56,773 bases of DNA, taken from Catenulispora pinistramenti. Its GTDB lineage: Bacteria; Actinomycetota; Actinomycetes; Streptomycetales; Catenulisporaceae. The DNA lies in assembly GCF_018274385.1 (NCBI RefSeq), contig NZ_JAAFYZ010000047.1, positions 1 through 56,773 on the forward strand, read 5' to 3'. Under the pieces are notes generated by a model that worked only from the letters and a program-made list of their open reading frames with translations, was not told the DNA's origin and made no database searches. Shown here in pieces: positions 411 through 44,149 of this stretch (the first letter of the stretch is position 1; every line of letters starts with the position of its first letter). Both the position numbers and the translations under genes were made by a program.

Positions 411-541
411 AGCGCAGCCTTACCCCGCGACCGACTCCCGGAGCAGCGGCGTGAAGCTCCGCCGCTGGTCAGCACTACCTCCAGAGAGCCGCTGAGAGAA
501 GTGGGGATGATCATGGCATCAGGGCCTGTTCTGCGCTGCTC

Positions 542-849
542 GACCTGAAACGCCGTCGCGCCGGCCAAGTACACACTGGAGAACGCATCCAGGCCACTGT
601 CGACGTCGGCAACACTCAGGCCAAGGGCCAGCTCGAACTGCTGATGTTGCGCCATACACACAGCGAGCAGCTGGCCGACGAACGAGAGCGGCGCACAGCT
701 GCGGAGCTGAAGGAACGCGACGTGCGGTTGGACAAGCTCGAATCAAGCCAGGCGGCCACGAACCGGCGCGTGTGGTTCCTGGCCGCGGTACGTCTGCGCT
801 GGGTATTGCGGCCAACGTCGGGGTGCAGCTGCTGTTCGTGCACCACTGA
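542..849 (+). pseudogene. Frameshifted coiled-coil/TM-tail small protein
   Basis: From about 542 the frame encodes a charged, heptad-like stretch (EQLADERERRTAAELKERDV), ending in TNRRVWFLAAV. Around 785-795 the natural continuation moves to another frame, which reads ALGIAANVGVQLLFVHH and stops at TGA 847-849. Joined, the two parts give a coiled coil followed by one C-terminal membrane helix, an architecture common in small actinobacterial and phage proteins. A one-base deletion near 791 would explain the break; a sequencing error is also possible. No start codon with a ribosome binding site is seen, so the 5' end is also lost or unclear. Confidence 0.35.
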
Positions 850-864
850 CCTATCGGCCCGGCG

Positions 865-1335
865 TCAGCTGGCGGCCAGCGTCATGTTGAAGCCGCTGGC
901 GACCTCGGCCGGCATGAACGTCTGCGTGCCGCGGTGGCTGATCGTGACGGTGTAGGTGGTGGCCGCGGCGACGTTTGTACTGAACGCAAACTGGCAGCCG
1001 CCACCGCCGAACGTGCCAGCCGCGAGGCTCGTCACGGCCAGGGTCTTGCCGGTCTGGTCGCCGATGGTGACGGCGACTCCGGCGTTGATGTCCTGGTAAC
1101 CGCCGCTGCCGGAGCAGGTGGTGCCGACGCTGCTGTAGCCGCCGTCCGGCAGCGTGAGGGTGCCGTGGACGGCGGTGGTCGCGGAGCTGCTGGCGCTGCT
1201 GCTCGTGTGGCTGACGTAGCCGGCGCCGAAGCCGACGCCGAGCGCGACAACAGCGGTCGCCGTCAGGACGGCGGAGCCGAAGCTGCGCCGCGGCGTGTCG
1301 GTCACGGTCGGTTGCTGCGCGATGTCCGTATCCAT
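865..1335 (-). CDS. Small membrane-anchored exported protein
   Basis: The ATG at 1335 is chosen because GGGGGAAAC precedes it; the frame is open further upstream without a better site. The 156-residue product has a charged N-terminus containing RRS, then a hydrophobic segment (about residues 20-42, VLTATAVVALGVGFGAGYVS), a Ser/Ala-rich linker and a beta-rich domain. The two cysteines in the C-terminal domain (TTCSG and GGGCQF) could pair outside the cell. It is likely a signal-anchor or Sec-exported protein. It stands alone and convergent with the upstream pseudogene. The domain is not recognised. Confidence 0.6.
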   Translation of the reverse strand: MDTDIAQQPTVTDTPRRSFGSAVLTATAVVALGVGFGAGYVSHTSSSASSSATTAVHGTLTLPDGGYSSVGTTCSGSGGYQDINAGVAVTIGDQTGKTLAVTSLAAGTFGGGGCQFAFSTNVAAATTYTVTISHRGTQTFMPAEVASGFNMTLAAS

Positions 1336-1454
1336 GTTTCCCCCTGGTACCCGATTCAGTGCGCTGAGAGTACGCGGGGGCCCGGTTTCCGGAAGCGTAC
1401 GGTCCTGGACACGCCGACGCCCGGCCGCATTGCGACCGGACGCCTCTGGTTGAC

Positions 1455-1706
1455 CTACTTGGAACCCTGGTGGGGCCACCTCAGCGTGACGACGGCCGTC
1501 CGGATCAGTATGGCCATGGCGTCGCGCACCTCAATGGAGTCCGCCTCGTCGAGATCGGCTAACCGTTCGTTGTTCCAGCGCTCGTCGCCGAGGCCAGCGC
1601 CGGCCAGCCGCCACGTGCCGTCGGCGGCGCGGCCGAGTAGGACGCTGTCACAGCCGCGTGCGAGGTTGTGGACGACGGTGTCTGGGCGCGGTGTCCAGGC
1701 GCTCAC
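1455..1706 (-). CDS. Hypothetical protein of a GntR-divergent operon
   Basis: An 83-residue acidic-to-neutral protein with a GTG start overlapping the stop of the preceding gene (GTGA), preceded by a strong GGAGGG. It contains NLARGCDSVLLGRAADGTWRLAG and a long C-terminal helix (VRDAMAILIRTAVVTLRW). It is the third gene of a three-gene minus-strand unit divergent from the GntR gene at 2235. Small proteins of this kind are frequently found beside GntR regulators in streptomycetes, but their function is unknown. Confidence 0.55.
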   Translation of the reverse strand: MSAWTPRPDTVVHNLARGCDSVLLGRAADGTWRLAGAGLGDERWNNERLADLDEADSIEVRDAMAILIRTAVVTLRWPHQGSK

Positions 1707-1924
1707 GTTCCCTCCTTGTAGACGGGCGTGAGGGTGTAGTAGGAGAACCCGCCAGGTCCACCGGGGTCCCGATCGGACCAGACGAGGCCCTGCTGTGAGA
1801 GGTGGTCGCCGACGCCGCCGACGCGCTGCGCGATCATCGCGGCCTCGTAGGCATTGACTTGCTGGCCGCCGGGCTGGCCGTTGCGCTGCCGTAGCCAGTA
1901 GGCGGGTGTGCGCTCGTCTTTCAC
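1703..1924 (-). CDS. Hypothetical protein of a GntR-divergent operon
   Basis: A 73-residue protein starting at GTG 1924, which overlaps the TGA of the upstream gene by 4 bp. The longer open frame to 2026 would overlap that gene heavily and is not preferred. It has a WLRQRNGQPGGQQVNAYEAA segment and ends YYTLTPVYKEGT. The last codons form the ribosome binding site of the next gene, so the three genes are translationally coupled. No family is recognised with confidence. Confidence 0.5.
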   Translation of the reverse strand: MKDERTPAYWLRQRNGQPGGQQVNAYEAAMIAQRVGGVGDHLSQQGLVWSDRDPGGPGGFSYYTLTPVYKEGT

Positions 1925-2127
1925 GACTGGCGTCCCAGGTAGGTCACCTGGTCGGCAGGCACTGACCATTCGAGGCCGCCGTTGACTGGCCGGAGCCAAA
2001 CGCTGCCAGGCTTGTCGGGGGCGCAAAGATGTGGGGGTATGGGCGGTGGCATGACCTCGCCGACACGGCCTTGAGTATCACGGGCGAGGCGTCGGCCCGA
2101 GGTGGTGATGTCCTGTCTGGGCTGCAT
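1921..2127 (-). CDS. Hypothetical protein, first gene of a GntR-divergent operon
   Basis: A 68-residue protein. ATG 2127 is preferred over the upstream open frame because GGAGAGCCGTA precedes it. The sequence (DTQGRVGEVM, then SVWLRPVNGGLEWSVPADQV) resembles small DUF-type proteins encoded next to GntR genes in Streptomyces, which look like compact beta-barrels. It reads away from the GntR gene, leaving about 107 bp of shared intergenic DNA. It is likely co-regulated with, or controlled by, that regulator; this is inferred from position only. Confidence 0.5.
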   Translation of the reverse strand: MQPRQDITTSGRRLARDTQGRVGEVMPPPIPPHLCAPDKPGSVWLRPVNGGLEWSVPADQVTYLGRQS

Positions 2128-2221
2128 TACGGCTCTCCGCTCATCCCAACTTGAGTACCCAAGCCGGAACGGTATTCCTACACTGCGAAGCCGGTCAAGA
2201 ACCTGGGTAGCCAAGTGGCGC

Positions 2222-2237
2222 TATCGTGGCCAGCATG
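2222..2237 (+). promoter_or_regulatory. Leaderless -10 element for the GntR gene
   Basis: TATCGT lies 7 bases before ATG 2235 and no Shine-Dalgarno is present. This is the TANNNT spacing seen for leaderless actinobacterial mRNAs. No convincing -35 is visible. Confidence 0.4.
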
Positions 2238-2990
2238 AGCACCGTGACGTCTCGACGAGAACGGATCGCGGCCGACCTGCGAGCAGCCATCCTCGACGGT
2301 CGCTACGGGCCTGGGGACGCACTGCCGTCAGCAAGCGAGCTTTGTTCGCGCTACAGCACAAGCCGTGTCACCGTTCGCCGCGCGCTGGAGACGCTGCACG
2401 CTGACGGTCTCATCGACATGAGACAGGGTGCTGTGCCGCGCGTGCGGACCGAACCATCAGTACGTATCGCAATCGTCGCGGCGGATTGGCGTCGCCACCG
2501 TGACGCCGGCCGCCCCGGGTTCGATGCGACGGTCGCAGAGCACGGCATCATCGGCCGCCAGGAGATACTGGACGTGCAGGACCAGGTAGCCGCGCCGGGC
2601 CACATCGCGGCGGAGCTCCATCTCGACGACGGCGACGCCGTGGTGATGCGACTGGTCCGCATGTTCGCCGACGAGCAGCCGGTTCGCATGGCCCGCAGCT
2701 GGTTCCCCGCCAGTTGGGCATCCGGTACGGCATTGGCCGAACGGAGACGGATCCGCGGCAGCGCCGCCCGGCTCGTCGAGGAGCTCCGAGGCCCACTCGC
2801 CACATCCTGGATCGACCTGGAAGGCAGGAACGCCAGCGACAAGGAAAGAGAGCTCCTGAAATTGGCCCGCGGCGTGACCGTGGTCCACACCACGACCACA
2901 TTCGAAGACCGGTACGGCAATCCGGTGTACGTGCAGGAGGAGATCTCCGACGCCAGCCGGCACAGCTGGCGCTTCCGGGTGGAACTGTGA
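2235..2990 (+). CDS. GntR-family transcriptional regulator (HutC/UTRA type)
   Basis: A 251-residue regulator. The N-terminal winged helix-turn-helix (about residues 5-68) carries typical GntR signatures: AAILDGRYGPGDALPSASEL and TVRRALETLHADGLI. The rest matches a UTRA-type effector domain (APGHIAAELHLDDGDAVVMR, then a WFPASWA segment and TTFEDRYGNPVYVQEE). The start at ATG 2235 fits a leaderless transcript. Its last codons overlap the GTG of the following ligand-binding protein, so the two are translationally coupled. It probably represses itself and the divergent unit at 1455-2127; the effector is unknown. Confidence 0.85.
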   Translation: MSTVTSRRERIAADLRAAILDGRYGPGDALPSASELCSRYSTSRVTVRRALETLHADGLIDMRQGAVPRVRTEPSVRIAIVAADWRRHRDAGRPGFDATVAEHGIIGRQEILDVQDQVAAPGHIAAELHLDDGDAVVMRLVRMFADEQPVRMARSWFPASWASGTALAERRRIRGSAARLVEELRGPLATSWIDLEGRNASDKERELLKLARGVTVVHTTTTFEDRYGNPVYVQEEISDASRHSWRFRVEL

Positions 2991-3940
2991 TCCGCGCCGG
3001 GGCCTGCCTGTCGTTGACGGGCAGGTTCGCGCCGTTCGGGACTCAGGCAGCGAACGGGCTGCGGTTGTGGGCAGCCGAGGCCGACGCGGAGCTGGTGGTG
3101 GTCGACGACGAAAGCAAGCCGGCGGTGCTCGAAGCGCGGATGCCGGAGCTCGCCGCGAACGTGGACCTGCTTTTCGGGCCGTACTCCACCATCCTGGCGC
3201 GGGCGGCCGCCGCGTTCGCGCAGCGCCGTGGATTGCTGCTGTTCAACCACGGCGGCAGCGGCGGACAGTTGAACATCCCCGGTTGCGTAGTGAACATCCT
3301 GACCCCCGCCGATCGATACGCATCTCCGTTCGTAGCGCACCTGGCCAAGTCCGGCTCGGGGCGGTTGTTCACGTACTGCGAGATCGGACAGTTCGGCCGC
3401 CAGGTGACCGCCGGCGCCGGCCGGGATGCGCGCGCAATTGGAATCGCCATCGATCAGCTCGACTTCGACGCGCCCCCGGACGGCGAATGGGACCTGCTGT
3501 CGGCCGGGGTGTATGAGGACGACGTCGCGGCGGTGAACCGGGCACGCACGCTGCCGAACCCGCCGCGGCTGGTGTGCAGCGTCGCAGCCGGGGTCGCCTC
3601 GTTCGCCGACGACGTCGACGATGCCGAGGGCGTGTTCGGGGTCGGACAGTGGGCGCCGGGCGCGGTCGGCGCGGTGGAGGCCGGCATAAACGAGCGCGAG
3701 TTCCTGCGCGCGTGGGAAGAGCGATTCGGCGGGGTGCCGGACTATCCGGGGGTGCAGGCGTACGCGGCCGGGGTGATCGCCGCTGCGGCCGGCCCGGGCC
3801 CGCACTGGGACACGGTCGCCGCGCTCGACCTGACGACAGTGTTCGGCCGGTTCCGCGTTGACGCCGCGATCGGTGAGCAGACGGGCCATACGGCCGTGCT
3901 CACTCGGTGGCGCGGCGGCCGGTCTCTGATCGCTCGGTAG
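2987..3940 (+). CDS. Periplasmic-binding-fold (type 1) ligand-binding protein without signal peptide
   Basis: A 317-residue protein starting at GTG 2987, overlapping the GntR stop by 4 bp (GTGA). It has the type-1 solute-binding (Leu/Ile/Val-binding, Peripla_BP_6) layout: GACLSLTGRFAPFG at the N-terminus, LLFGPYSTILARAAA, GVPDYPGVQAYAAGV and a C-terminal TTVFGRFRVD. Unlike transporter subunits it lacks a signal peptide or lipobox and no permease or ATPase gene follows, so it should be cytoplasmic. Coupling to the regulator suggests a soluble ligand sensor or partner for GntR; that role is inferred. Confidence 0.75.
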   Translation: MIRAGACLSLTGRFAPFGTQAANGLRLWAAEADAELVVVDDESKPAVLEARMPELAANVDLLFGPYSTILARAAAAFAQRRGLLLFNHGGSGGQLNIPGCVVNILTPADRYASPFVAHLAKSGSGRLFTYCEIGQFGRQVTAGAGRDARAIGIAIDQLDFDAPPDGEWDLLSAGVYEDDVAAVNRARTLPNPPRLVCSVAAGVASFADDVDDAEGVFGVGQWAPGAVGAVEAGINEREFLRAWEERFGGVPDYPGVQAYAAGVIAAAAGPGPHWDTVAALDLTTVFGRFRVDAAIGEQTGHTAVLTRWRGGRSLIAR

Positions 3941-4099
3941 CGGAGCCGTTCCCGGCGCTGATGGCGTCGGCGCCGGGTCTGCAGGCCGTGGCGACCTGCA
4001 CTAACGAGTGATCTTCATAGGAAGGAAATGGGGATGCTCATGACGCGACTCAAGACCCATCAAGTCGTATCGCGTCGTGAACATCGTCCACATGTGAAA
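3941..4099. other. Intergenic stretch before the half-tRNA scar
   Basis: Together with the scar this makes a gene-free stretch of about 700 bases up to 4648. A short reading frame with a good AAGGAAATGGGG site starts at ATG 4036 and runs into the hairpin at 4100-4155. It is not called because its 40-odd residues resemble nothing known. Confidence 0.3.
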
Positions 4100-4155
4100 G
4101 GGCCCTCTGACCCGCTTCCGCAGCTCAAGCTACGGAAACTAAGGTCAGAGGGCCC
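4100..4155 (-). terminator. Long perfect hairpin, probable terminator
   Basis: The arms 4100-4112 and 4143-4155 are a perfect 13-bp inverted repeat (GGGCCCTCTGACC), with a nested TTCCG/CGGAA stem inside. On the minus strand the stem is followed by CTTTCAC, so it best fits termination of leftward transcription coming from the tRNA scar. Confidence 0.5.
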
Positions 4156-4165
4156 ACGTCTCGAG

Positions 4166-4207
4166 AGCCGCTGAGGGGACTCGAACCCCTAACCGCCTGT
4201 TTACAAG
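4166..4207 (-). pseudogene. 3' half of a tRNA-Thr(TGT) gene, attachment-site remnant
   Basis: Read on the minus strand, 42 bases give an anticodon loop CTTGTAA, the 3' anticodon-stem strand ACAGG, a variable region, a perfect T arm (AGGGG, loop TTCGAGT, CCCCT) and the acceptor strand AGCGGCT. The upstream bases do not form the matching 5' anticodon strand, D arm or AGCCGCT acceptor, so the gene is only a half. Identity running from the anticodon loop to the 3' end is exactly what tRNA-targeting tyrosine integrases carry as att core. It is therefore best read as an att half-site. Confidence 0.55.
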
Positions 4208-4310
4208 AGCGGTAGGTTGTCGCCTTGACCTGCGGCGCGCGCCCGCTCCCTCGTTGTTTTCCGCGTATTTCCCGCACGGGATGCGGCGCCACCGTGGAGG
4301 TCATCTCGCC

Positions 4311-4353
4311 CCCGCTTAGGAGGCGGGTGCTCTATCCCCTGAGCTACGAGGGC
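4311..4353 (-). pseudogene. 5' portion of a tRNA-Arg(CCT) gene
   Basis: Read on the minus strand: acceptor GCCCTCG, a complete D arm (GCTC...GAGC) and a complete anticodon arm (CCCGC, loop CTCCTAA, GCGGG) with anticodon CCT. No T arm and no proper 3' acceptor strand follow. A near-match CGAGGGA appears only about 57 bases later, without a T arm. The gene is thus interrupted just after the anticodon stem, as expected after integration or imprecise excision of an element using this tRNA. Confidence 0.6.
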
Positions 4354-4648
4354 AACGCTCCGAAATCCTAGCGTGGGACGAGGTCAAGACACTCCCGGCA
4401 TCTGGGTCCGTGTCCGGACGCCACGCGCCGCAACGGCCCCGGCGAAATCTCCCCGCTATTTCCCCGCAACCTGACCTGACGGCTCGGACACCACATCGGC
4501 CGCACCGAGCGTACCGCCAGCCCAGCCCACCCGCCGCGCCTTCCCTGCTCAGCCCCGCCTGGCCCCGCCGGCGGGGCTGACTCCTTTCTACGCGCCTTCG
4601 CGCCGTGCCTCGCTCCCAAGCCCGCCAGCACCTCTTAAGGACTTCTCC

Positions 4649-5515
4649 ATGCAGCACCACCCGATAGGCAGCTTCGACTGGAAGCGCATCGTCAAGCGCG
4701 CCGAGCTGCCGCGCACCACGAAGCTGATCGCCGAGTTCCTGGGCGACTTCGCCAACGCCGACGGCACCGAAGTACGACCCGGCGTCGAGCTGCTCGCGAA
4801 GATCGCCGGGGTGTCCACCCGGACGGTGAAGACCCACCTGAAGACGCTGCGAGCAACCGGGCTGATTGAGAAGACCAAGCACTCCCGCGCGCTCGGCATG
4901 GCCGACGAGTACCGGCTCACCGTGCCCGGCCTGGACCGCACCCCCGTCCCGATGCGCCTGGACCCCGACTACATCCGCATCGAGACACCCGCGCCCGCCA
5001 CCGACGAACTCCCAGAGGCTGTGGATAACGCGTTCGATTCTGTGGACTCATCTGTGGATGAGGCTGTGGACAACCGTTCGAGCGGCCCGTTCGGGGCGGA
5101 CGCCTACGTGAAGCTGGATGCAGCCCTAGGTGAAACTGGACGTCCGTCTAGGGGAAGCGGGCTTCACCCCTCTATCCAGACCAACCACTACCAACCATCT
5201 ACTGGGTCACCTCAGGTGGGTACCTCACTTGAGGCTGTGCACCCGACCGATCAAGGCGAGTCGATGGCGAGGGGTGGGTCCGAACCGAGCGACGCCGAAT
5301 ACATCGCTGCATACGAGATCTTGATCGTCCTACCGGACACCGAGCCGTTCAACACCGTGGCGCTCGCCGAGTTGCATGCCGCTGGGATTGTCGATCCCTC
5401 GCCCAGGCAGATCGCGGTGCGCGCCGCCGACATCGCCACGCGGCCGGCGGTACCGGACGAGCAGCGGAGCACAGCACCCGTCGCCATCGGTTCCCACCCG
5501 GCGGAAGGAGCCTGA
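4649..5515 (+). CDS. Helix-turn-helix protein of integrative-element type
   Basis: A 288-residue protein, start ATG 4649 with AAGGA upstream. Residues 1-90 form a winged HTH (EFLGDFANADGTEVRPGVEL, then GVSTRTVKTHLKTLRATGLI), similar to the DNA-binding region of HTH proteins encoded on actinobacterial integrative elements and plasmids. The remainder is low-complexity and acidic, with repeated AVDN motifs, and probably unstructured. It lies directly beside the two half-tRNA genes and is coupled (TGATG) to the next gene. This supports an origin in an integrated element now lacking its integrase. A role in replication or transfer control is possible but unproven. Confidence 0.6.
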   Translation: MQHHPIGSFDWKRIVKRAELPRTTKLIAEFLGDFANADGTEVRPGVELLAKIAGVSTRTVKTHLKTLRATGLIEKTKHSRALGMADEYRLTVPGLDRTPVPMRLDPDYIRIETPAPATDELPEAVDNAFDSVDSSVDEAVDNRSSGPFGADAYVKLDAALGETGRPSRGSGLHPSIQTNHYQPSTGSPQVGTSLEAVHPTDQGESMARGGSEPSDAEYIAAYEILIVLPDTEPFNTVALAELHAAGIVDPSPRQIAVRAADIATRPAVPDEQRSTAPVAIGSHPAEGA

Positions 5516-6269: not shown

Positions 6270-7700
6270 ATGGCGCGTCCGTCTGGCTGGGACGTATTGG
6301 GTTTGGACGGAGATCCAACGCCTGGTGTGGTGGAGTCGGTGCAGGCTCTGGCCAAGGAGTTCGGGGACTTCGCCCATGATGTCGAGGCGGCGTATCGGAA
6401 CCTGAACAGCTTCGGTTCCGACACCGCGGCCCTGGAGTGGGTGGGTCAGACCGCGGAGGCCTTTAAATCCGCCTATGGTCCGCTGCCGGGGCGGCTGCAA
6501 AAGCTGTACACCTCCTATAGCGAAGCCTCTGACGCACTGTCCGCGTACGCGCCGAAATTGCAGAATGCGCAAAGCAAAGCAGATGCGGCGCTGCGGCAGG
6601 CCAAGGACGCCGAGGTCGATCTACAGCGTGCCACGACCTCGGCGAACAGCGCTGCGACCGATTTGAAGACTGCGCAGCAGAACCACGCGGTGAACCCCAA
6701 CCCGCAGGCCGTGACCGATGCCCAGACGGCACACGACACCGCGCAGACCAAACTGAAGAGCGCCGAGACCCAAATGTCCGCCCTGAAGGCGCAGGCGCAA
6801 CAGGCCCATGACGACCGCATCGCCGCAGCCAAGGACTGCGCCAAAGCACTCGGCCATGCCCAGCACGACGGCATCCACAACAAGCATTGGTGGCAGCACG
6901 TCGCCGACGACGTCCTGTCGACTACCGACGGTGTCCTGTCAGCGGTCGGACACTTCGTCGAAGGTATGAGCTACGACCTCGCCGATGTCCTCCAGGTACT
7001 TTTCAGCAAGCAGTCACTTCTCGGCATCGCCCAGACGCTCGCCGGGCTGCTGATGATGACCGCGGGTGCCGGCGGCGAGATCGGCGGCACAGCGCTCGAC
7101 CTGACCGGGGTGGGCGCCCTACTCGGTGTTCCGGTGAACGCTCTGTCGGCAGGGCTGATAGGCGGCGGCGGCGTTCTGGCCGTCAAGGGCTTGCACGACT
7201 GGATGGCCGCGATGGCCAACGGCGACTACAACGCCTGGCCACGCAACAGCCGGGGCGGTCCGAAGCCGCCGCAGCCGCGCGAGGCCGACCCTGGCGGCGA
7301 CGAGGACTTCGGCGGACACGGTGTCGAAAGGCACGTCGGGCGCAGCGACCAGCAACTCGCGGAACGATTCGAGAAGAACCTCAGGGACGTCAGGGAAAAC
7401 GGGAGAAGGCCGCTCCAGGACGCATCCACCTACGAGAACTACGCCGACGAGCAGCGGTTCTCGCAGCAGGTCGTCGACTCCAACAAGCAAGAGATCAGCG
7501 ACTGGCTGAAGAGCAACCCAAAAGGGACCCAAGAGTTCACGATCGAGGACGCCGATGAGGTGACCGGACGTTCCCTGTCCCGCCAGGACTGGCAGAATGG
7601 TAACGGCCCAAGACAGGTGCGCGGCGCCACCGTGGTCTTGCGACCCGATCCGAGCGCACCCGGCGGCTACTACATCCTCACCACCTTCCCCTCCGGCTGA
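6270..7700 (+). CDS. Polymorphic toxin: WXG100/LXG-like carrier with RNase A-like CdiA-CT domain
   Basis: A 476-residue protein. Residues 1-110 form a helical WXG100/LXG-like domain (LEWVGQTAEAFKSAYG) without a Sec signal, suggesting type VII export. An Ala/Gln-rich coiled coil follows (about 110-200), then a hydrophobic glycine-rich region (about 235-310) and a Pro/Gly linker. The last ~125 residues match the bacterial CdiA-CT RNase A fold: HVGRSDQQLAERF, then ASTYENYADEQRFSQQVVD, VVLRPDPSAPGGYY and a C-terminal LTTFP. The domain would cleave RNA in target cells. In the family the terminal motif is usually T-x-Y-P; here the Tyr is Phe. The cognate immunity gene follows 49 bp downstream. Confidence 0.8.
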   Translation: MARPSGWDVLGLDGDPTPGVVESVQALAKEFGDFAHDVEAAYRNLNSFGSDTAALEWVGQTAEAFKSAYGPLPGRLQKLYTSYSEASDALSAYAPKLQNAQSKADAALRQAKDAEVDLQRATTSANSAATDLKTAQQNHAVNPNPQAVTDAQTAHDTAQTKLKSAETQMSALKAQAQQAHDDRIAAAKDCAKALGHAQHDGIHNKHWWQHVADDVLSTTDGVLSAVGHFVEGMSYDLADVLQVLFSKQSLLGIAQTLAGLLMMTAGAGGEIGGTALDLTGVGALLGVPVNALSAGLIGGGGVLAVKGLHDWMAAMANGDYNAWPRNSRGGPKPPQPREADPGGDEDFGGHGVERHVGRSDQQLAERFEKNLRDVRENGRRPLQDASTYENYADEQRFSQQVVDSNKQEISDWLKSNPKGTQEFTIEDADEVTGRSLSRQDWQNGNGPRQVRGATVVLRPDPSAPGGYYILTTFPSG

Positions 7701-7749
7701 CGCCGAGGGAAGTACTTGACCGACATCCACGACACACGAGGCCAGGGCG

Positions 7750-8526
7750 ATGACACAGCCGGACATCTTCGACGACGACGCGCCGTGGGCCGAGTGGCTG
7801 CCCGAGCTGCGGATGATCCTGTCCGCCTACAACTCGGTGCTCGACGACCGGTTCTCTGACACCCCGGAAGTCCCGTCGAAGGCGATGCGGTCCTACCTGC
7901 GGATGGCGACCTACTATCCGGGTCGGGCATTTCGAGCGACCGCCGAGATTTTGGAGGTGCTCAAGCGCGGCCTGGACTCGCCCGAGGTCGCCGCCGAGTT
8001 GGCCACGATGCCCCCCATGGGGGTGCCGCAGGGCCGCACTCGCGAGGACTGCCTGATGATGATGATCCCGCACCTGGTCGCGTTCACTGAGAGCGGCGAG
8101 CAGACCGAACCCGCCGTGCCGGAGACCAAGTGGGAGTGGCGACAGCGGCTGCCGAACCTGTCCAGGCTGCTCGGAGGCTACTACCACCAGAGCGCGGTGG
8201 ACTATCTGTTCCCTGATGTGGAAGACGACAAATACGACGAGGCGGCCTTGGCCGAGTTTTATGGTAGCGGTCCCGATCCGCGTGCTGCGGCGGTGGTTGC
8301 CGAGATCGGCGAGCTGCTGGAGATGGGACTTGACGAGGACGCGCTGGAGGCCGCGGTGACCGCGCTGGGGTCGGACTACGGCCCCCCACCAAGATGCTCC
8401 CGAGAGAGCTGGCTGATGGAAGTGGCCCAGCACCTGTCCCAGCGTCTCCAGGCCGATGGATATCAGCCGCCGGAGGGCCTGAATCCCGCTTACCCGCCGC
8501 ACGACAAGCGCGCGTTCGCCCGGTGA
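7750..8526 (+). CDS. Two-domain CdiI-type immunity protein
   Basis: A 258-residue cytoplasmic protein immediately downstream of the toxin, as expected for its immunity partner. The C-terminal half (about residues 133-250: LPNLSRLLGGYYHQSAVDYL, then AVVAEIGELLEMGLDEDALE) matches CdiI-family contact-dependent-inhibition immunity proteins. The N-terminal half (about 15-110) repeats the same pattern in diverged form (LPELRMILSAYNSVLDD, then TAEILEVLKRGLDSPEVAAE and HLVAF), so the protein looks like an internal duplication. It would bind and block the RNase domain. Confidence 0.7.
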   Translation: MTQPDIFDDDAPWAEWLPELRMILSAYNSVLDDRFSDTPEVPSKAMRSYLRMATYYPGRAFRATAEILEVLKRGLDSPEVAAELATMPPMGVPQGRTREDCLMMMIPHLVAFTESGEQTEPAVPETKWEWRQRLPNLSRLLGGYYHQSAVDYLFPDVEDDKYDEAALAEFYGSGPDPRAAAVVAEIGELLEMGLDEDALEAAVTALGSDYGPPPRCSRESWLMEVAQHLSQRLQADGYQPPEGLNPAYPPHDKRAFAR

Positions 8527-28657: not shown

Positions 28658-29614
28658 TTAACGGGCGGCGGCCTCGATGAGGTAGGCCAGGGCCGGGCCG
28701 GTGGTGTGCCGGACGATGCTGATCTTCTGCACGCCGTTTGGGAGCGGGCCGCCCCAGGGGTTGATCCGGTCGCCGGCTGCCGGGACCACGACGTTGTCGT
28801 GGATGTCCCAGCCGCGGCCAGGGATGTAGGCGGCGACACGGACGGTGCAGTCGCCGAAGTCGGAGCCCAGGCTGAACCACACGTTGCCCCAGTTGCTGCC
28901 GGTGTTGGCCGGGGGCGGGGCGACGATGTGGGCGTTGGTGTCGTTGGGGATCTCGCCGGTGGCGAAGGCGGGCATGTTGTCGTCCTCCGTGGGATTGGTG
29001 GCAGGCGGTTCGGGGGTGGCGGGGCCGGAGCTGGTGCCGTTGATGAGGTCGGCGAGTTCTTGTGTGGTGCCGCGGTAGGCGTTGAAGTCCATCCGTTGCC
29101 CGCCATAGGGCTGGGAGTTGGTGTACTGCCAGATCGCCGGGCTGGTGCCGCCGTAGGGGTTCCAGTTCGGATCGGTGTCGGAGTAGCCGCCGGGGTAGCC
29201 GGAGGCGACGATGGCCACGCCGAGGGAGGCGAGGTTGCCGCCGACCTGCTCCCAGAACCAGCGGGGGAAGTAGGCGCCCCAGACGCGGCCGCCGAGGGAT
29301 TGCATGCGGGTGATGAAGTCCAGGCAGTCCTGCACGGTGGGATTGGAGGCGCCTTCGGTCTCCACGTCGAGCATCACCGGCGCGGAGCCGACTATGGCGA
29401 AGCAGTACTCGGCCTGTGCAGCGCCGTTGCTGGCCTTCAGGAAGTGGTAGGCGGAGAAGATCGCCCCGATCCGTGCGGCCTGGGCCTTGAACTCCTCGTA
29501 GTTCGCATCGTCGTAGTAGGTGCCCTCGGTCGCCTTGGCGATGACGGCGACAGTGCCGGGCTGGATGACCAGCCCGTCCTCGTAGGAGCTGATATCGGGG
29601 AAGAACACGGTCAT
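28658..29614 (-). CDS. GH25-type endolysin
   Basis: A 318-residue phage lysin. The N-terminal ~195 residues form a GH25 lysozyme barrel: FPDISSYEDG, VAVIAKATEGTYYDD, PVMLDVETEG with the catalytic acid pair and IWQYTNSQPYGGQRMDFNAY. A Pro/Thr linker (about 197-215) precedes a beta-rich C-terminal domain (about 220-318: SNWGNVWFSLGSDFGDC; RINPWGGPLPNGVQ) that probably binds the cell wall. It would cleave peptidoglycan at host lysis. The start ATG 29614 lies 13 bases after a late-gene motif. Confidence 0.85.
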   Translation of the reverse strand: MTVFFPDISSYEDGLVIQPGTVAVIAKATEGTYYDDANYEEFKAQAARIGAIFSAYHFLKASNGAAQAEYCFAIVGSAPVMLDVETEGASNPTVQDCLDFITRMQSLGGRVWGAYFPRWFWEQVGGNLASLGVAIVASGYPGGYSDTDPNWNPYGGTSPAIWQYTNSQPYGGQRMDFNAYRGTTQELADLINGTSSGPATPEPPATNPTEDDNMPAFATGEIPNDTNAHIVAPPPANTGSNWGNVWFSLGSDFGDCTVRVAAYIPGRGWDIHDNVVVPAAGDRINPWGGPLPNGVQKISIVRHTTGPALAYLIEAAAR

Positions 29615-29626
29615 GTCGGGGGTGCC

Positions 29627-30163
29627 CTATTCAGTTGTGCCGGTCGGCGCCTGGACAGCAGCGACCGGGGATGTGCTGGCCATGGAGTCCAGGCGGGTGT
29701 GCAGCCCGGACAGGGAATCGGAGTGCTCGCCGAGCCGTGCGAGGGCGTCGGTGAGCGCGTCGTCCTGGGCGGCCAGGTGCTGCTGGATCTCCAGGGAGGT
29801 ATGCAGCACGGCTTCGGCGTCCAGGAACGTACGCTCGTCGCGGTCGTCGGCATGGGCGGCGGAGATCCGATCGCCGAGCAGGATCACCGAGAGCAGGACC
29901 AGTTGGAGGAACGTCTGGGCGGCCCAGCCGACGATGACCAGCAGATCACCGCTGGCCAGGGCGGCCGGCAGGGACACCAGGGCAAGCGCGGCGAAAACAT
30001 AGGCGCACCACATGGTGCCCACACCGCGGGTGACAGCCAGGGCCAAGCGGTTGTTGAACGCCGCCGCGCGGCCTGCTCGGGGGTCTGGCCGGTCCGCGGT
30101 GTCGGTTCGGGTTCGGGCGGCGATGTGCGGGTGCGGAACGTGGGCGAACAGCGGCACAGTCAA
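29627..30163 (-). CDS. Phage membrane protein with coiled coil (lysis region)
   Basis: A 178-residue protein with TTG 30163 and AAGGA upstream. Two hydrophobic helices (WCAYVFAALALVSLPAALAS and LVLLSVILLG) lie in the centre. A long charged helix follows (AEAVLHTSLEIQQHLAAQDD) and the tail is Thr/Pro-rich. It resembles small DUF1003-like actinobacterial membrane proteins. Its TAG stop lies inside the CACAACTGAATAG motif that leads the endolysin gene. A holin or antiholin role is possible. Confidence 0.55.
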   Translation of the reverse strand: MTVPLFAHVPHPHIAARTRTDTADRPDPRAGRAAAFNNRLALAVTRGVGTMWCAYVFAALALVSLPAALASGDLLVIVGWAAQTFLQLVLLSVILLGDRISAAHADDRDERTFLDAEAVLHTSLEIQQHLAAQDDALTDALARLGEHSDSLSGLHTRLDSMASTSPVAAVQAPTGTTE

Positions 30164-30207
30164 GGTCCTTATTCAGTTGTCGCTCCGGACGGGAAGCGGC
30201 TATCCGG

Positions 30208-30549
30208 TCACGGGCTGCGCGGCGTGGCCGAGGCTGGGGTCGTACCGCGGGCTGCGGTGTCGGCGACCAGGACGGCGACGTGGGCGACGGTGCGCTGCAC
30301 CTCGGCCAAGACCGCGCTGTGGTCGGCCAGTACAGCGGTGTGCCGGTTCTGCTCGACCGCGATCCGGTCGACCTGATCGCGCAGGGAGCTGCCGTGGTTG
30401 GGGACCAGCTCGATCGAATGGCGCTCGATCTGCTCGACGGCATACATGATGCGGCGGGTGTGACGGCCGCCGCGAACCAGCACAGTCCAGGCCGCCCCGG
30501 CCACAGCAGTGGCTGAGGCGGCGGTGACAGACCAGCCTTCGACATTCAA
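30208..30549 (-). CDS. Membrane-anchored coiled-coil phage protein (DUF2746-like)
   Basis: A 113-residue protein starting TTG 30549. An N-terminal membrane helix (SVTAASATAVAGAAWTVLV) is followed by a coiled coil (MYAVEQIERHSIEL; VDRIAVEQNRHTAVLADHSA) and a short Pro-rich tail. This N-TM plus coiled-coil architecture recurs near actinophage lysis genes. A late-gene motif lies 12 bases upstream of its start. Confidence 0.55.
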   Translation of the reverse strand: MNVEGWSVTAASATAVAGAAWTVLVRGGRHTRRIMYAVEQIERHSIELVPNHGSSLRDQVDRIAVEQNRHTAVLADHSAVLAEVQRTVAHVAVLVADTAARGTTPASATPRSP

Positions 30550-30564
30550 GATCAGGCCTCGTAT

Positions 30565-30729
30565 TCAGTTGTCAGCGTCGGGTTCTACGCCGGAGCAGGC
30601 GATGAAGCAGGCGGGCGGCGCGCGGGCCTCGGCGGCGAGCTGGCGGGCGGCGGGGCCGAGCTGCGGCGCCACCACGATGACGACGCCGCAGCACCACAGC
30701 AGGGACGCGGCGATGAACACTGCTGCCAT
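30565..30729 (-). CDS. 54-residue single-TM phage protein
   Basis: ATG 30729 opens a 54-residue frame: a hydrophobic N-terminal helix (VFIAASLLWCCGVVIVVAP), then an amphipathic Ala/Arg-rich segment and a Cys-containing tail (PACFIACSGVEPDADN). The TGA stop at 30565-30567 is part of the CACAACTGAATA motif of the next gene. It is the first small membrane gene of the lysis cassette. The function is unknown. Confidence 0.5.
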   Translation of the reverse strand: MAAVFIAASLLWCCGVVIVVAPQLGPAARQLAAEARAPPACFIACSGVEPDADN

Positions 30730-30765
30730 CGCTGCTCCGCTTCGTATCTGCCTGTGGGGGGGTCC

Positions 30766-31323
30766 TCAGCTGCTGACCCAGTGGATGAACATGCGCGGGC
30801 AGCGGTGGTCGGTGCAGGTGGTGATGGGGTTGAAGTACGGCGTCGCGTACAGCTCCACAAAGTCCCCCAGGTTCAGCTGGAGGTAGCCGCTGGCCTGGAC
30901 GGTGCCGCCGGCGTTCGCGGGCCCTTGATCGAACCGCAGCTGGGTGCCGATGTAGTTGGCGGAGGAGTTCACCGAGATGGTGAGGGACGAGATGGGTTCT
31001 GCGGTGCCGACCTCGGCGGGGGTTTGCATGCCCAGCTGCCCGGTGACGTGGTAGAGCCCTGCGAGCTGGCACACGTAGCGGGAGTTGTTGGCGCTCGGGT
31101 TGTGACCGCCCGCGTTGTCGAATCCGGAGTCGAGAGCGATCGGTATCGTCTCGCTGGTGCTGGTACCGGGCAGTGTCTGCGCCACCGACTGCCACAGGTA
31201 GGCGTAGGGCCGGTTGAGCAGGAAGTTCGCGACCGGCGGCATGGTGGCGTTCCACAGGACTGCGGTGCCGGTTTGGGCGACGCCCACGCCCACCGGCGTG
31301 GGCGGGGGATACAGCGGCGGCAT
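30766..31323 (-). CDS. Jelly-roll tail fibre/baseplate-type protein, paralogue 3
   Basis: A 185-residue protein starting at ATG 31323 directly after the previous TAG. After a Pro-rich head it has the motif series shared with the next two genes: WQSVAQTLPGTSTSETIPIA, ALDSGFDNAGGHNPSANNSR and LAGLYHVTGQ. It ends in FIHWVSS. The pattern (aGlYxvs, alternating strands) suggests a C1q/TNF-like jelly-roll used for host binding. It is located between tail-tip and lysis genes. Confidence 0.6.
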   Translation of the reverse strand: MPPLYPPPTPVGVGVAQTGTAVLWNATMPPVANFLLNRPYAYLWQSVAQTLPGTSTSETIPIALDSGFDNAGGHNPSANNSRYVCQLAGLYHVTGQLGMQTPAEVGTAEPISSLTISVNSSANYIGTQLRFDQGPANAGGTVQASGYLQLNLGDFVELYATPYFNPITTCTDHRCPRMFIHWVSS

Positions 31324-31845
31324 CTACAGCCCCACCCAATGCAGGCCCATCCAGGCACCGACGCCGTTGCTTTCGGTCTGGCCGGAGTCCTGCCACAGCT
31401 GCGTCTCGACGTAGTCGCCGGTTTGCAGCGGGATCTCCGCGGTGGCGCAGCCGCCCATCCTGGAGAAGGTCAGGTCCCGCCCGAACAGGATGATCGCCCA
31501 GATCACGGCTTCGTTGGCGATGATCGCCACAGACTCCTCACCGCCTGCGGAGCCAGCGAGGAACATGCCGGCGGAGGCCGACACCAGGTACGTGCCGGGG
31601 GTCTTCACGGTGTAGCGGGTGTTGTTGTTGACCGGGTCGTGGCCCCCTTCGGTGTCCCGCACCGCCGAGTCGAACGCGATCCGTGTCGAAGTGGATGTCG
31701 GTACGGACTGGCTGATCGTTTGGGTGAGCAGCGCCGACGGGGCGCGCATGTGGAATCCGGCGGCGTAGACGAAGCTGTTCCAGGCTGTCGCCGTGATCGG
31801 CTGGTCGGGGAAGGCCTGGGGCACGGCTGGGACAAGACGCGCCAT
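31324..31845 (-). CDS. Jelly-roll tail fibre/baseplate-type protein, paralogue 2
   Basis: A 173-residue protein. Shared motifs: LLTQTISQSVPTSTSTRIAF, AVRDTEGGHDPVNNNTRYTV, TPGTYLVSASAGMFLA and a WMGLHWVGL end. It is the middle member of three tandem paralogues. Neighbouring genes abut (0 bp to the next). It probably forms trimeric receptor-binding knobs, inferred from the fold pattern. Confidence 0.6.
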   Translation of the reverse strand: MARLVPAVPQAFPDQPITATAWNSFVYAAGFHMRAPSALLTQTISQSVPTSTSTRIAFDSAVRDTEGGHDPVNNNTRYTVKTPGTYLVSASAGMFLAGSAGGEESVAIIANEAVIWAIILFGRDLTFSRMGGCATAEIPLQTGDYVETQLWQDSGQTESNGVGAWMGLHWVGL

Positions 31846-31891
31846 TGGCGACTCCGGTGGTTTCGGTCGCCGCGGCGGCGTGTGGGTGCGG

Positions 31892-32416
31892 CTATAGGCC
31901 GATCCAGCGGGCGCTCATGCGGCAGCCGGTGGTGATGAACCCGGTGGGCTGGGCGGCGCCGGAGTTCTGGTAGATGCGCAGCTGGACCCCGTCACCGGCG
32001 ACCACAGGGATCAGGGCACTGAGGCACAGCTGGAACCGGACCGGGCTCGGCGTGGACGGGATCTCGTAGGCGGCCCACGTGCCCTTTCCGACGACCGCCA
32101 GGGTGTTGCCGATGAACGCGCCCGCAGCTCCGGTCCAGGCCAGGTTGCTGACCGCCGACACCAGGTAGACTCCGGCGGCCGGCGCGATCCAGGTGTCACC
32201 GGCTGCGTTGCGGCCTTGATAGTTGTCGTAGACGACTTGGTCGAAGGCCACTGCGGTGTTGGCGTTGTCCTGGATCGATTGGGTGACGGTCTGCGCGAGC
32301 ATCGCCCGTGGTGGGTCGCTCATCCAGGAGGCCAGCGCGGCCGGGCCGGTATCCCACATGTTGGAGGTGAACACCGCGTTGGAGTAGGCAGTGGCTGTCG
32401 CCGGGGGCGTGACCAA
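31892..32416 (-). CDS. Jelly-roll tail fibre/baseplate-type protein, paralogue 1
   Basis: A 174-residue protein; TTG 32416 is chosen for the AAGGGGG five bases upstream, since the long open frame continuing to 33598 is only antisense-free by GC bias. Shared motifs: MLAQTVTQSIQDNANTAVAF, PAAGVYLVSAVSNLAWTG and a CRMSARWIGL end. It is the first of the three paralogues and follows the tail-tip gene by 23 bp. Confidence 0.6.
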   Translation of the reverse strand: MVTPPATATAYSNAVFTSNMWDTGPAALASWMSDPPRAMLAQTVTQSIQDNANTAVAFDQVVYDNYQGRNAAGDTWIAPAAGVYLVSAVSNLAWTGAAGAFIGNTLAVVGKGTWAAYEIPSTPSPVRFQLCLSALIPVVAGDGVQLRIYQNSGAAQPTGFITTGCRMSARWIGL

Positions 32417-32439
32417 GACGACCCCCTTGGGATGCGGTA

Positions 32440-34992
32440 TCAGTAGCCGAAGACGAAGTGGTCGAAGGTGGAGTAGTCGAACTGGCCGTAGGGGTTGGGG
32501 TCGGCCGGGGAGATCTGCAACGTGAGTTTGGCCTCGCCGGTGGTGTCCACCGACCAGGCGATGTTCTCCACGAACCCGTCGACCGCCACCGGCACGGCCG
32601 GGGCCGGCGGCCGCCGGACGGCCTTCACCCGGGAGCCGAGGTCCAGGCCGAGCACCGCCGGCCACATCGCCGGGTTCGCCGAGGGGTTGACTGTCAGCGC
32701 CGCGACCCGGGTGTGCGAGGTCTTGTAGCGGTTGACCAGGAAGTTGGCCTGGTCCTGGCACTCCTGCGCATTGGTTGACTGGGAGGTGACCTGCCGGTCG
32801 CGGACCCCGTTGGCCATTTGGGAGGCGAAGTCCTGCCCGGTGAAAATGATGTTGGTGCTGGCCTGGGTAATCTCGGCGAGGTTGGTGACCAGTGTCGGGT
32901 CGTAGTCGAAGCCGGGCTGGTCTTCGTACGGCCACTCCCCCGCCGCGGTGTTCTCCCCGAACACCACTGGCGACGGCGGCGGGTTCCAGCGTTGCGAGCG
33001 CGGCTCCAGGACCACGGTGCCGGCGGCGTCGCAGTACATGGTCCCGCCCTCGGTGTCGGTGACTGCTTGCAGAGCAGAGGCCGCGTCGGTGTCGACCAGG
33101 TCGGTGGCGGCCATGAGGGATGCGGTGTCGCTGTCGACGCTGGCAGGCCCCATCCATGCGGCCGCCGACAGGATCTTGCCGAACCGTTGGTCCGCAGAAT
33201 CGCCTGCCCAGCCGGTGCGCCACGCGGCGTAGATGGCGTTCCACTGGTCGCTGTCGATGGCCCCGGCCCACTCGATCGCCAGGGCGACATCGCCGGAGAG
33301 GTTGTATTCCACGTCGTTGTAGTTCGCGGCACCGATCAGGTCCTGTCCGTACCCTCCGGTCGGAGGTACGAAGGCGGGTGTGACGGCGGTGCCGTATTGG
33401 ATGCTGTCGAACCCGCTGCTGCACGAGGTGCCGTCGGCGGTGAGCCCGATGTAGGCCAGGTGCCAGTTGCCGATGCCGGCCTGGCCCAGGTAGTGAATCC
33501 CGGCGGCGCCCTGGTTGTTGGGGCCCTGATACACCGCCGAGACCGACAGGTCCGGGTTCACCCACAGCCCGACCGCGGTGGTCTGGGGCCCTTTCCAACT
33601 CGCCAGCCAGATCGCCGACTGCGCCTTCGGCGCCGCCAGCACCCGAAACGCGATCATGCGGGTGAAGCCTTGGCCCCCCGTACCGGGGCCAAGGAGGCCG
33701 GCACGGCTCGGCGGCAGCTGGATGTACGACATGTTGCGCGGCAGGTCATAGTCACCCACCCCGGTCGGCGCGGTGGAGGCGATGTTCACCACCGTGGTCC
33801 CCACCGGGCAGGCGAAGTTCCCGGCCGGCACGGCCGCGGTCCGGGTGACCCCGGCGGTGACCGCGCCGGCGCCTTCAATGCCGATCGCCACCTGCGCCGG
33901 ATCCCGCTGCCCGGTCGCATCCAGAAACACCCCGCCGGCCTGGTCGTCCAGCATGTACGCGAACGTCGGCAGCGGCGCCCCCGGTGTGCGGAACGCCGCG
34001 GCGGTGAACGGGTCGGTCAGTTTCGATTGCGACAGCAACGCCAAGGCGTCGACTGCGGTCGCCTGTACCTGCCCCAGCGTTCCCTGCTGCCGCCAGGTCT
34101 GCGGATAGCGCTCGACTCCCCCGGTGAACAGGTTGAACCAGGTGCCCGGGAGCTGGAAGGTAGTCGCGCCGCTGTTCTGCTCGAACTGCACCCCATCCAT
34201 CTGGAACGTCCAAGCAGTGGCCGGCGCCGCCTCCAAGGTCAGCCCGATAAAGACGCCTGCCGCGCCGGAAGGGGCGGTACCCGCGATCCCCACCGGCGTC
34301 CATCCAGCTGTGGCCGACCCGGTCAGCGACACCGATGGAGCCGTGATCGTGGAGATCATGTTCCCGGCAGCGTTCTGCCACCGCACGTACGGAACGACCG
34401 CCGTGTTGGCCCCAGCAGTCACCGAACGGATCCGCACCGAGAATGCATACGGCAGGCCTGCGCCGACAGCGATGGGCAGTGGCCCCACCTTGGCCACGGA
34501 GTTTCCTGCGGTGACCCCGGCCGGGACCTGCACCTGCCATACCTGCGTGCCCTGCCATGCTGAAGCCGAAGCAAACACCGTCGGCTGGCCGTACAGACCC
34601 GTGAGCCCGAACGTTGTGCCGACCGTGCCAGCGGCTAGCGGGGTACCCTCCCCGCCGGTGGCCTGGTCGATGGTGAGCAGGTTTGTACTCGGCGGCCACT
34701 GGGCCCGGATCCGGAACGGCTGGTATGGAGTAACCTGCCCGGCCACCGCCGAGCCGGTGTTGCCCGGATCGAACAGTCCGTCCCGGTTGTCCAGGACCCC
34801 CGACCACGTGCCGGCGGTGAACTGATCCAGCTCGTACTGGCGGCCCCGGGCGATGTTCCACGAGCCGATCAGCCGCGACGTGATGTCCAGCCACGGCAGC
34901 AGTTCGTAGGACGCGGCCGACGGCCCGTAGCCGATGTGACCACCCGGGGACCACAGGGCTTGGAGCCTGGGCCAGCTCGGGTTCTGCGACAT
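32440..34992 (-). CDS. Large minor tail / tail-tip protein with carbohydrate-binding-like domains
   Basis: An 850-residue protein. The N-terminal ~100 residues (RGRQYELDQFTAGTWSGVLD) resemble the distal-tail hub region of actinophages. A beta-sandwich insertion (about 110-290, ending TAWTFQMDGVQFEQNSG) looks like a carbohydrate-binding module. A LamG-like region follows (about 360-590). The C-terminal part (TNLAEITQASTNIIFTGQDF, then VRDRQVTSQSTNAQECQDQA) is the typical end of Streptomyces-phage minor tail proteins. It likely links the tail tip to fibres and touches the host surface. A late-gene motif lies 14 bases before ATG 34992. Confidence 0.7.
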   Translation of the reverse strand: MSQNPSWPRLQALWSPGGHIGYGPSAASYELLPWLDITSRLIGSWNIARGRQYELDQFTAGTWSGVLDNRDGLFDPGNTGSAVAGQVTPYQPFRIRAQWPPSTNLLTIDQATGGEGTPLAAGTVGTTFGLTGLYGQPTVFASASAWQGTQVWQVQVPAGVTAGNSVAKVGPLPIAVGAGLPYAFSVRIRSVTAGANTAVVPYVRWQNAAGNMISTITAPSVSLTGSATAGWTPVGIAGTAPSGAAGVFIGLTLEAAPATAWTFQMDGVQFEQNSGATTFQLPGTWFNLFTGGVERYPQTWRQQGTLGQVQATAVDALALLSQSKLTDPFTAAAFRTPGAPLPTFAYMLDDQAGGVFLDATGQRDPAQVAIGIEGAGAVTAGVTRTAAVPAGNFACPVGTTVVNIASTAPTGVGDYDLPRNMSYIQLPPSRAGLLGPGTGGQGFTRMIAFRVLAAPKAQSAIWLASWKGPQTTAVGLWVNPDLSVSAVYQGPNNQGAAGIHYLGQAGIGNWHLAYIGLTADGTSCSSGFDSIQYGTAVTPAFVPPTGGYGQDLIGAANYNDVEYNLSGDVALAIEWAGAIDSDQWNAIYAAWRTGWAGDSADQRFGKILSAAAWMGPASVDSDTASLMAATDLVDTDAASALQAVTDTEGGTMYCDAAGTVVLEPRSQRWNPPPSPVVFGENTAAGEWPYEDQPGFDYDPTLVTNLAEITQASTNIIFTGQDFASQMANGVRDRQVTSQSTNAQECQDQANFLVNRYKTSHTRVAALTVNPSANPAMWPAVLGLDLGSRVKAVRRPPAPAVPVAVDGFVENIAWSVDTTGEAKLTLQISPADPNPYGQFDYSTFDHFVFGY

Positions 34993-35106
34993 GGCTGGGC
35001 CTTCACTATTCAGTTGTCTGGTTCACCGCGCACCATTGCCGCAGCCTGGTGGTTCTGGATGGACCGTCCGGTGCGCCTGCGCGAAAATCAGCACCCTTGC
35101 CGCGAA

Positions 35107-38910: not shown

Positions 38911-38953
38911 CGCGGCCTCCCGGGCTGCTCGCTATTCAGTTATGTGTGATGCG

Positions 38954-39427: not shown

Positions 39428-39564
39428 TGGTCCATCCCATAGACATCGATTAGCCGCCGAAGTTCGCCCAAGTCGGTGGCTGCATCCAACCTGAGGGAGT
39501 TGATTCGGTACGCGACTCGCGAAACGTAGTCTCCGCTGAACCCACCCGCAGAGTATTGACTCAC
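39343..39564 (-). CDS. Doubtful small frame upstream of the gp10-like gene
   Basis: A 73-residue GTG-initiated frame. Only its first ~46 residues (SQYSAGGFSGDYVSRVAYRI, then LGELRRLIDVYGMDQ) lie outside the gp10-like gene; the rest overlaps it in another frame. Composition is lower in GC than the late genes. It may be a gene remnant beside the plus-strand cargo gene. No family is recognised. Confidence 0.25.
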   Translation of the reverse strand: MSQYSAGGFSGDYVSRVAYRINSLRLDAATDLGELRRLIDVYGMDQCRRSWSRGYLPSCSPRWWRRARLRPRR

Positions 39565-39715
39565 CGTGCTAAATTCGTTACGAACGACGAAGGGGAGTAG
39601 CCCGCTAGCTCGGACGTCGACATACTGGCTCCTTTGGGAGCCCGGCCCCGGGGCGCCACAGTGGTTGAGACAGGACCACCTGGCGTGGGCAAGACCTTCG
39701 GCCTATCGATCCGTC

Positions 39716-39964: not shown

Positions 39965-39982
39965 CCGTGAACCTGAGGCGGC

Positions 39983-42232: not shown

Positions 42233-42240
42233 GCCGCCGG

Positions 42241-44146: not shown

Positions 44147-44149
44147 ACC

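Follow-up and report, generated by a model that had tools for sequence, protein, structure and literature searches.

The window analysed here is the whole of contig C412 (56,773 bases) of the 11.46-Mb draft assembly of the soil bacterium Catenulispora pinistramenti (G000; 671 contigs, completeness listed as 99.95%), and its genus comparison covers ten Catenulispora genomes, namely this assembly and nine others that include the close relative Catenulispora pinisilvae NH11 (G002). Near one end of the window, two partial tRNA genes lie on the minus strand. Read on that strand, the start of an HTH gene (4649) comes first, then a -10-like leader and nucleotides 1-45 of tRNA-Arg(CCT) (4353-4309). 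After a further 34 nt there is an arm-like repeat (4274-4256), which precedes the core TCTTGTAAA (4208-4200) and the remainder of a tRNA-Thr(TGT) 3' half, ending at 4166. A hairpin (4155-4100) and the older genes of the chromosomal side come last (Table 1). The Arg half breaks off immediately after the 3' side of the anticodon stem. A reading made from the window alone (the sequence-only reading) had already described a 5' half of tRNA-Arg(CCT) and a 3' half of tRNA-Thr(TGT) about 100 bp apart on this strand; sequence identity confirms both, and the gap from the Arg half to the core is 100 nt.

Table 1. Features of the window and of the two related Ala prophages; positions without a contig name are those of the window
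Feature	Position	Strand	Basis or remark
Older 3.7-kb island beside the tRNA-Thr site (GntR-UTRA and periplasmic-binding-protein-like genes)	about 497..4155	.	common to G000 and Catenulispora pinisilvae
Strong hairpin 3' of the tRNA-Thr end	4100..4155	-	fold z -9.6 versus shuffles; also follows the G002 3' half
Native tRNA-Thr(TGT) 3' half, chromosomal side of attR	4166..4208	-	identity to relatives' intact gene
att core TCTTGTAAA, 9 nt	4200..4208	-	tRNA-Thr-UGU anticodon loop; common to attR, C87 attL and relatives' intact gene
Prophage P arm	4209..4280	-	ACCGC left of core pairs with GCGGT right of core on C87; C2 and C36 similar
Arm-type-like repeat CGGGAAATACGCGGAAAAC	4256..4274	-	CGGAAAATACGCGGAAA present in attL of three related prophages
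tRNA-Arg(CCT) 5' 45 nt, within prophage	4309..4353	-	identity to intact gene
-10-like leader (TAGGAT at 4365-4370)	4354..4386	-	resembles sequence upstream of G005 tRNA-Arg(CCT)
HTH_36 gene, last prophage gene before attR	4649..5515	+	homologues at same place in Ala prophages
Cargo: T7SS-signal (WXG100)/bacterial RNase A-domain toxin and CdiI_2-type immunity gene	6270..8526	+	domain matches
Phage late genes: endolysin, tape measure, minor tail, major head, portal, large terminase	28658..55953	-	syntenic with Ala prophages
Ala prophage, G000	C64:19568-26296 with C2:17648-105585		attR = tRNA-Ala(TGC) 3' half on C2
Ala prophage, Catenulispora pinisilvae	G002:C24:27054-95750 with C36:1-26384		

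ARAGORN reports no tRNA gene at the two halves, and cmscan at gathering thresholds returns nothing in the window. In a whole-genome RF00005 search, 4166-4210 scores 18.6 bits, below the cut-off of 29, and 4287-4353 scores 29.2 bits, barely above it. No tRNA-like 3' half is visible by eye at 4287-4353, and this stretch does not fold better than its shuffles (z -0.30). A single tRNA gene with an intron or with other boundaries was considered and rejected: ARAGORN finds no such gene and the acceptor stems fail to pair (GCCCTCG versus CAGCGGC). Another ARAGORN call, a tRNA-Arg(tcg) at 50268, lies inside a reading frame and is taken as false. Odd tRNA-like genes, possibly phage tRNA clusters, also occur elsewhere in the assembly, as a TCA/CGC pair (C60:2603-2755) and as degenerate tRNA-like pieces (C233:234-450).

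The Thr half corresponds to the tRNA-Thr(TGT) of the genus from the anticodon loop through the 3' end. It is identical to the intact gene in five relatives (G001, G002, G007, G008 and G009, listed as 99-100% complete) and differs from that of G005 by one base, after the core. The intact gene of those five genomes reads ...CACCTG-TCTTGTAAA-CAGGCGG..., and in the window a phage-side ...CTACCGC precedes the core while native tRNA-Thr sequence comes after it. The downstream flank of the Catenulispora pinisilvae tRNA-Thr locus follows: window 4100-4199 is 94% identical to G002:C556, and window 1-4016 matches G002:C556:33779-37937 in two segments at 92 and 96%. Judged from these alignments, the Thr half is the attR, or right border, of a prophage to which all of the window from 4209 onward belongs. 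The hairpin beyond it is presumed to be the terminator of the older island or gene; a terminator scan makes no call at this hairpin.

The opposite border lies on contig C87, where the native tRNA-Thr 5' half, the core, a P' arm, a complete tRNA-Thr (2017-1944) and an integrase gene (356-1945) follow one another. The upstream flank of the locus is C87:2403-5131, which is 94-95% identical to the Catenulispora pinisilvae locus, and C87 and the window together bear the two flanks of that locus. Because the 5' half and upstream flank are on C87 and the 3' half and downstream flank are in the window, the tRNA-Thr gene is split between these contigs. After the 9-nt core C87 continues as GCGGTGAGG..., not as a tRNA 3' half, and the flanks of the core differ on both sides. 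ARAGORN also calls a tRNA-Thr at C87:2366-2451, which is the broken 5' half running into phage DNA. The complete tRNA-Thr(TGT) has a full cloverleaf, begins 394 nt behind the core and is identical to the native tRNA at 62 of 73 positions. The integrase gene (PF00589, E 1e-7) converges on the 3' end of this rescue tRNA, and what we take to be the R, H and Y positions of the recombinase motif are invariant in an alignment of three integrases. The arm site of this attL is 214 nt from the core, and the putative attP has an inverted repeat around the core, ACCGC-TCTTGTAAA-GCGGT. No second intact tRNA-Thr(UGU) was found in the draft assembly (61 RF00005 places; 55 distinct ARAGORN predictions from 48 loci).

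These observations bear out the earlier suggestion that an integrase used the Thr half as an attachment junction, the core being placed in the anticodon loop: attR, the attL on C87 and the relatives' intact gene agree on it. The genome scan that had been proposed for intact counterparts finds tRNA-Arg(CCT) complete on C78 and an intact tRNA-Thr(UGU) only as the prophage copy on C87, and the proposed comparison with related strains finds the same core in all five intact genes named above. The neighbouring HTH gene, which had been called element-like, proves to be the last gene of the prophage, with homologues at the same place in related prophages.

Two such prophages, each ~95 kb and colinear with the window, split a tRNA-Ala(TGC) gene, one in the same assembly (C64/C2) and one in Catenulispora pinisilvae (C24/C36). 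These sizes are sums over contigs that abut in alignments, in which window 29019 falls at C36:1 and window 29022 at C24:95750, and C2:105522 and C64:26216 both fall at C24:35540. On both C64 and C24, host-side upstream sequence and the native tRNA-Ala 5' half are followed by the core, 18 or 19 nt, a complete and different tRNA-Ala(TGC) that is identical to the native one at 60 of 73 positions, an arm repeat and then the integrase gene. With the C87 integrase, theirs share 53 and 54% identity. The rescue tRNA thus lies 18, 19 and 394 nt behind the core in the three prophages, in line with the host tRNA upstream region. The arm repeat is common to all three attLs, and a search for it gave 13 of 181 loci, every one a copy of these three places. 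Another candidate arm motif, CCGCAGGTCARGG, was rejected as not specific, since it has 8 matches in G000 (5 forward, 3 reverse) and its reversed control has 11.

By its late genes and its colinearity with these ~95-kb prophages, the Thr element reads as a temperate phage. Its borders lie on two contigs, C87 and C412, and because the alignments leave ~40 kb unplaced between C87 and the end of the window, it is synteny that points to a single continuous prophage; the two borders would then bound one element of ~95 kb. No overlap of 21-127 nt joins an end of C87 to an end of the window, a result that tells little because the C64/C2 pair is negative as well. Within the window, an ISL3-family transposase gene (22158-23876) is flanked by 37-nt inverted repeats that are 95% complementary. 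Two phage-borne tRNAs (Trp-CCA and Ala-TGC) lie near attR of the Catenulispora pinisilvae prophage (G002:C36:23467-23621), and in G009 a tRNA-Ala(TGC) 3' half occurs without its 5' half beside another integrase of the C87 family (C5 ~136826-138385; L152).

Homologues of the integrase model are present in 244 of 391 genomes of the order (E 1e-30 or better). In a survey of the int side of 29 integrase loci, which are part of these matches and do not include C87, ARAGORN places a tRNA near int in 21 and none in 8. A second tRNA 5' half precedes the complete tRNA in 2 of those 21, both the Ala cases, in a test that was impossible for one locus and with a doubtful prediction at L159. The split-and-replace type therefore appears rare among the integrase relatives seen. 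A tblastn search of 50,697 phage records with the integrase returns only five Bordetella phage records, covering 12% of the query, and none of 74 IMG/VR pattern matches is a relative of the integrase. Searches with the terminase and with the HTH protein give only distant phage relatives (739 and 13 records), all below 60% identity. The P-arm pattern has 29 matches in viral contigs; none is followed by an anticodon-loop-like core, and the 29 loci contain no tRNAs. In the literature on Catenulispora prophages, integrase and tRNA, there is no paper on the prophages of this genus among the matches listed.

The tRNA-Thr site has probably been hit more than once, judging from an older island beside the newer prophage. 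This island is present in G000 and G002 relative to G001, and a 10-nt stretch at 487-496 reads, weakly because it is so short, as a remnant of the tRNA-Thr 3' end. Where G000 has the prophage, G002 has a 2.5-kb insertion beside its intact tRNA-Thr. An orphan attachment-like site, consisting of the arm repeat and a TCTTGTAAA core, occurs away from tRNA-Thr in G001 (C1 ~4557803-4557880); a tblastn search with five prophage proteins and an ARAGORN search of the 44 kb around it found nothing.

Over its full 45 nt the Arg half agrees without a mismatch (100% identity) with positions 1-45 of the complete tRNA-Arg(CCT) gene at G000:C78:11165, a match too long for chance (E 5e-16). The identical 45 nt start tRNA-Arg(CCT) in seven of the nine other genus genomes (six separate 100% matches and G005); G004 has no match to them and G006 has only matches of 82-85%. 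The 33 nt upstream of the Arg half are unlike G000's own tRNA-Arg leader and resemble that of G005 (88% identity across 78 nt, tRNA part included). G005 is also the only one of 14 family genomes whose match to the leader and Arg half extends beyond the tRNA part, and a search of 394 class genomes at E 1e-17 returns G000 itself only. For window 4156-4648, the best 20 rows from phage records (35) and the best 16 from plasmid records (16) contain only matches of ~40-67 nt. Nearly all of those listed fall over the tRNA-Arg part; two from plasmids extend into the leader by 16-20 nt, and one from a phage lies outside the tRNA-Arg part. A pattern across the Arg break has no match in viral contigs. 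The sigma-70 consensus scan predicts no promoter at the leader, nor at any of the three sites scanned, and this says little about the Arg leader because the host-side sequences of C87 and C64 are among those without a predicted promoter.

Several other changes are visible at tRNA-Arg(CCT) in the genus. An 8.1-kb insertion with a 7-bp repeat (GCCCTCG) lies at the exact 5' end of the gene in G000 (C78 ~3072-11164; L089); it has inverted ends GGGACGTGATGAAAA and TTTTCAGCACATCCC and, by eye, a large T7SS/RHS-type gene. The same 5' end has 158, 158 and 82 extra bases in G009, G003 and G005. In Catenulispora pinisilvae an element lies in the gene (G002:C127:3169-6595), with an intact copy and, ~3.3 kb downstream, a 3' half from the anticodon loop onward. 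Anticodon-arm matches in G003, G007 and G008 were rejected as Arg attachment sites: all occur at the same gene junction, before a gene start that reads like what is presumably ispE, and the G007 and G008 stretches appear to be inside the end of the preceding gene.

The Arg half is situated within the prophage, between its end gene and the arm site, and no chromosomal flank of the G000 Arg locus adjoins it. This piece is missing from the Ala prophages, in which the interval from attR to the HTH gene is ~200 bases shorter than in the window. No matching Arg 3' half was found in G000 (of four matches, one is C78, one is the window piece and two are other tRNA genes). On these grounds, together with its identity to host tRNA-Arg(CCT), we read the piece as phage-borne host DNA. 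The first choice among the readings, held tentatively, is that a host tRNA gene was captured with its leader and later truncated.

The sequence-only reading had proposed instead that two tRNA-targeting elements recombined, or lost the DNA between them, so that halves of tRNA-Arg(CCT) and tRNA-Thr(TGT) were fused in a hybrid scar. The halves are co-oriented, the Arg piece stops at the anticodon stem, where such integrases act, and tRNA-Arg(CCT) is also targeted in the genus, as the displaced 3' half in Catenulispora pinisilvae illustrates. However, the attL of the Thr prophage survives on C87, the sequence upstream of the Arg half leads to the prophage end gene and is not the G000 Arg locus, whose flanks are on C78, and no matching Arg 3' half was found in G000. 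A scar of this kind is thus very improbable. The chromosomal tRNA-Arg(CCT) gene itself is complete, and its native upstream sequence has been displaced by a different insertion. For the Thr site, with its older island beside the prophage, the accompanying idea of successive integrations probably holds, but not as the origin of a hybrid scar. Ordinary integration, in which attP rebuilds the tRNA at attL, might be how most of the integrase relatives work, given the 21 of 29 loci with a tRNA near int and only 2 with a second 5' half. Unless C87 is misassembled it can scarcely apply here, where C87 does not continue as a tRNA 3' half after the core and the intact tRNA is a separate gene.

For the origin of the Arg piece, a less probable alternative to truncated capture is that it was once an attL-type junction. 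An ancestral phage would have resided in the tRNA-Arg(CCT) anticodon loop of another Catenulispora host, and aberrant excision would have taken the leader and 5' half along. This would account for a break just beyond the 3' side of the anticodon stem and for a leader that resembles the tRNA-Arg leader of another genome rather than that of G000, and the phage family has switched tRNA targets (Thr and Ala). By eye, however, the 34 nt after the break are unlike the P' arms seen, only ~40 nt separate the Arg loop from the nearest following arm repeat, compared with 214 nt from core to arm in the C87 attL, and there is no other 5'-half-only tRNA-Arg(CCT) match in the ten genus genomes. It is also conceivable, although rather unlikely, that the Arg leader and 5' half are an expression cassette rather than debris. 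The Arg half, the core and the phage tRNA-Thr are on the same strand, with 100 nt to the core and 394 nt beyond it, so a working leader might express the phage tRNA-Thr across the core in the circular phage. In this reading the host tRNA-Thr promoter would replace the Arg leader after integration, as for the Ala prophages with their tRNA 18-19 nt behind the core. A working leader is compatible with either a truncated capture or a former junction.

Overall, the locus is very probably the attR of a temperate phage with tRNA-dependent lysogeny, together with a phage-borne Arg 5' half. Its tyrosine integrase would have recombined attP, which mimics an anticodon stem-loop, with the anticodon loop of the host's sole tRNA-Thr(UGU) gene. 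Because the shared core is only 9 bp, the gene was split and not rebuilt, its 5' half ending up on C87 and its 3' half in the window. The phage tRNA-Thr would then be made, probably by read-through from the host tRNA promoter, and the host would need it. Its expression is a prediction, as the sigma-70 scan finds no promoter. A Catenulispora tRNA-Arg(CCT) gene may have supplied the Arg 5' half together with its leader, the captured piece being cut short at the anticodon stem. ACA and GCA codons are expected to need tRNA-Thr(UGU) and tRNA-Ala(UGC), respectively. Among the tRNAs found in the draft assembly of G000, the intact UGU-threonine and UGC-alanine tRNAs are prophage-borne ones only, and the host probably depends on the prophage-supplied tRNA-Thr. 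As both tRNAs appear to be supplied only by prophages, imprecise loss of either prophage should be lethal, which would amount to a built-in addiction. That the rescue tRNA follows the core in line suggests a way in which an integrating phage can borrow the promoter of the gene that it breaks, and the Arg piece bears on the question of how phages of this kind take up pieces of host tRNA genes and switch targets.

Classical integration into tRNA 3' halves, as practised by genomic islands and actinomycete integrative elements, uses the same target region and integrase superfamily and displaces the 3' half at attR. The Catenulispora prophage differs in that it does not restore the gene at attL. 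Lactobacillus johnsonii belongs to a different phylum from Catenulispora. Its prophage Lj965 is reported to integrate without rebuilding the tRNA and to encode the cognate tRNA (cited in PMC10865867). The closest parallel is the tRNA-dependent lysogeny described by Guerrero-Bustamante and Hatfull (mBio 2024, PMC10865867), for example in mycobacteriophages Fionnbharth (K4), LeBron (L1) and Gaia (X). The Thr prophage shows its features: a tyrosine integrase gene by attP, a short core in a tRNA gene that is rebuilt at neither junction, a complete tRNA of the same isotype on the element, and a disrupted gene that is the only host copy in the draft. As described in PMC10865867, the core (9 bp, against 8-17 bp in that paper) lies within the host tRNA gene and has arm-type sites on both sides, the tRNA is not rebuilt, and the phage tRNA is complete and of the same isotype. 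The isotypes differ, however, being Thr-UGU and Ala-UGC in the Catenulispora prophages and Lys-TTT, Ile2-CAT and Leu-CAA for the tRNA-dependent phages of Table 2 in that paper, where a tRNA-Thr-CGT phage is listed as rebuilding its tRNA. Catenulispora is not among the hosts in its table of tRNA-dependent phages. The rescue tRNA of Fionnbharth overlaps gene 37 and has its own promoter (PMC10865867), whereas in Catenulispora it follows the core in line with the host gene, after 394 nt in the Thr prophage and after 18-19 nt in the Ala prophages. A further difference is that the ~95-kb Thr prophage bears an Arg 5' half by its attR. It is very probably a prophage of the tRNA-dependent lysogeny kind with some variant anatomy and one unexplained piece, the Arg half, and it extends this kind of lysogeny to another host genus, to two further isotypes and to an integrase without a close match among the deposited phages searched.
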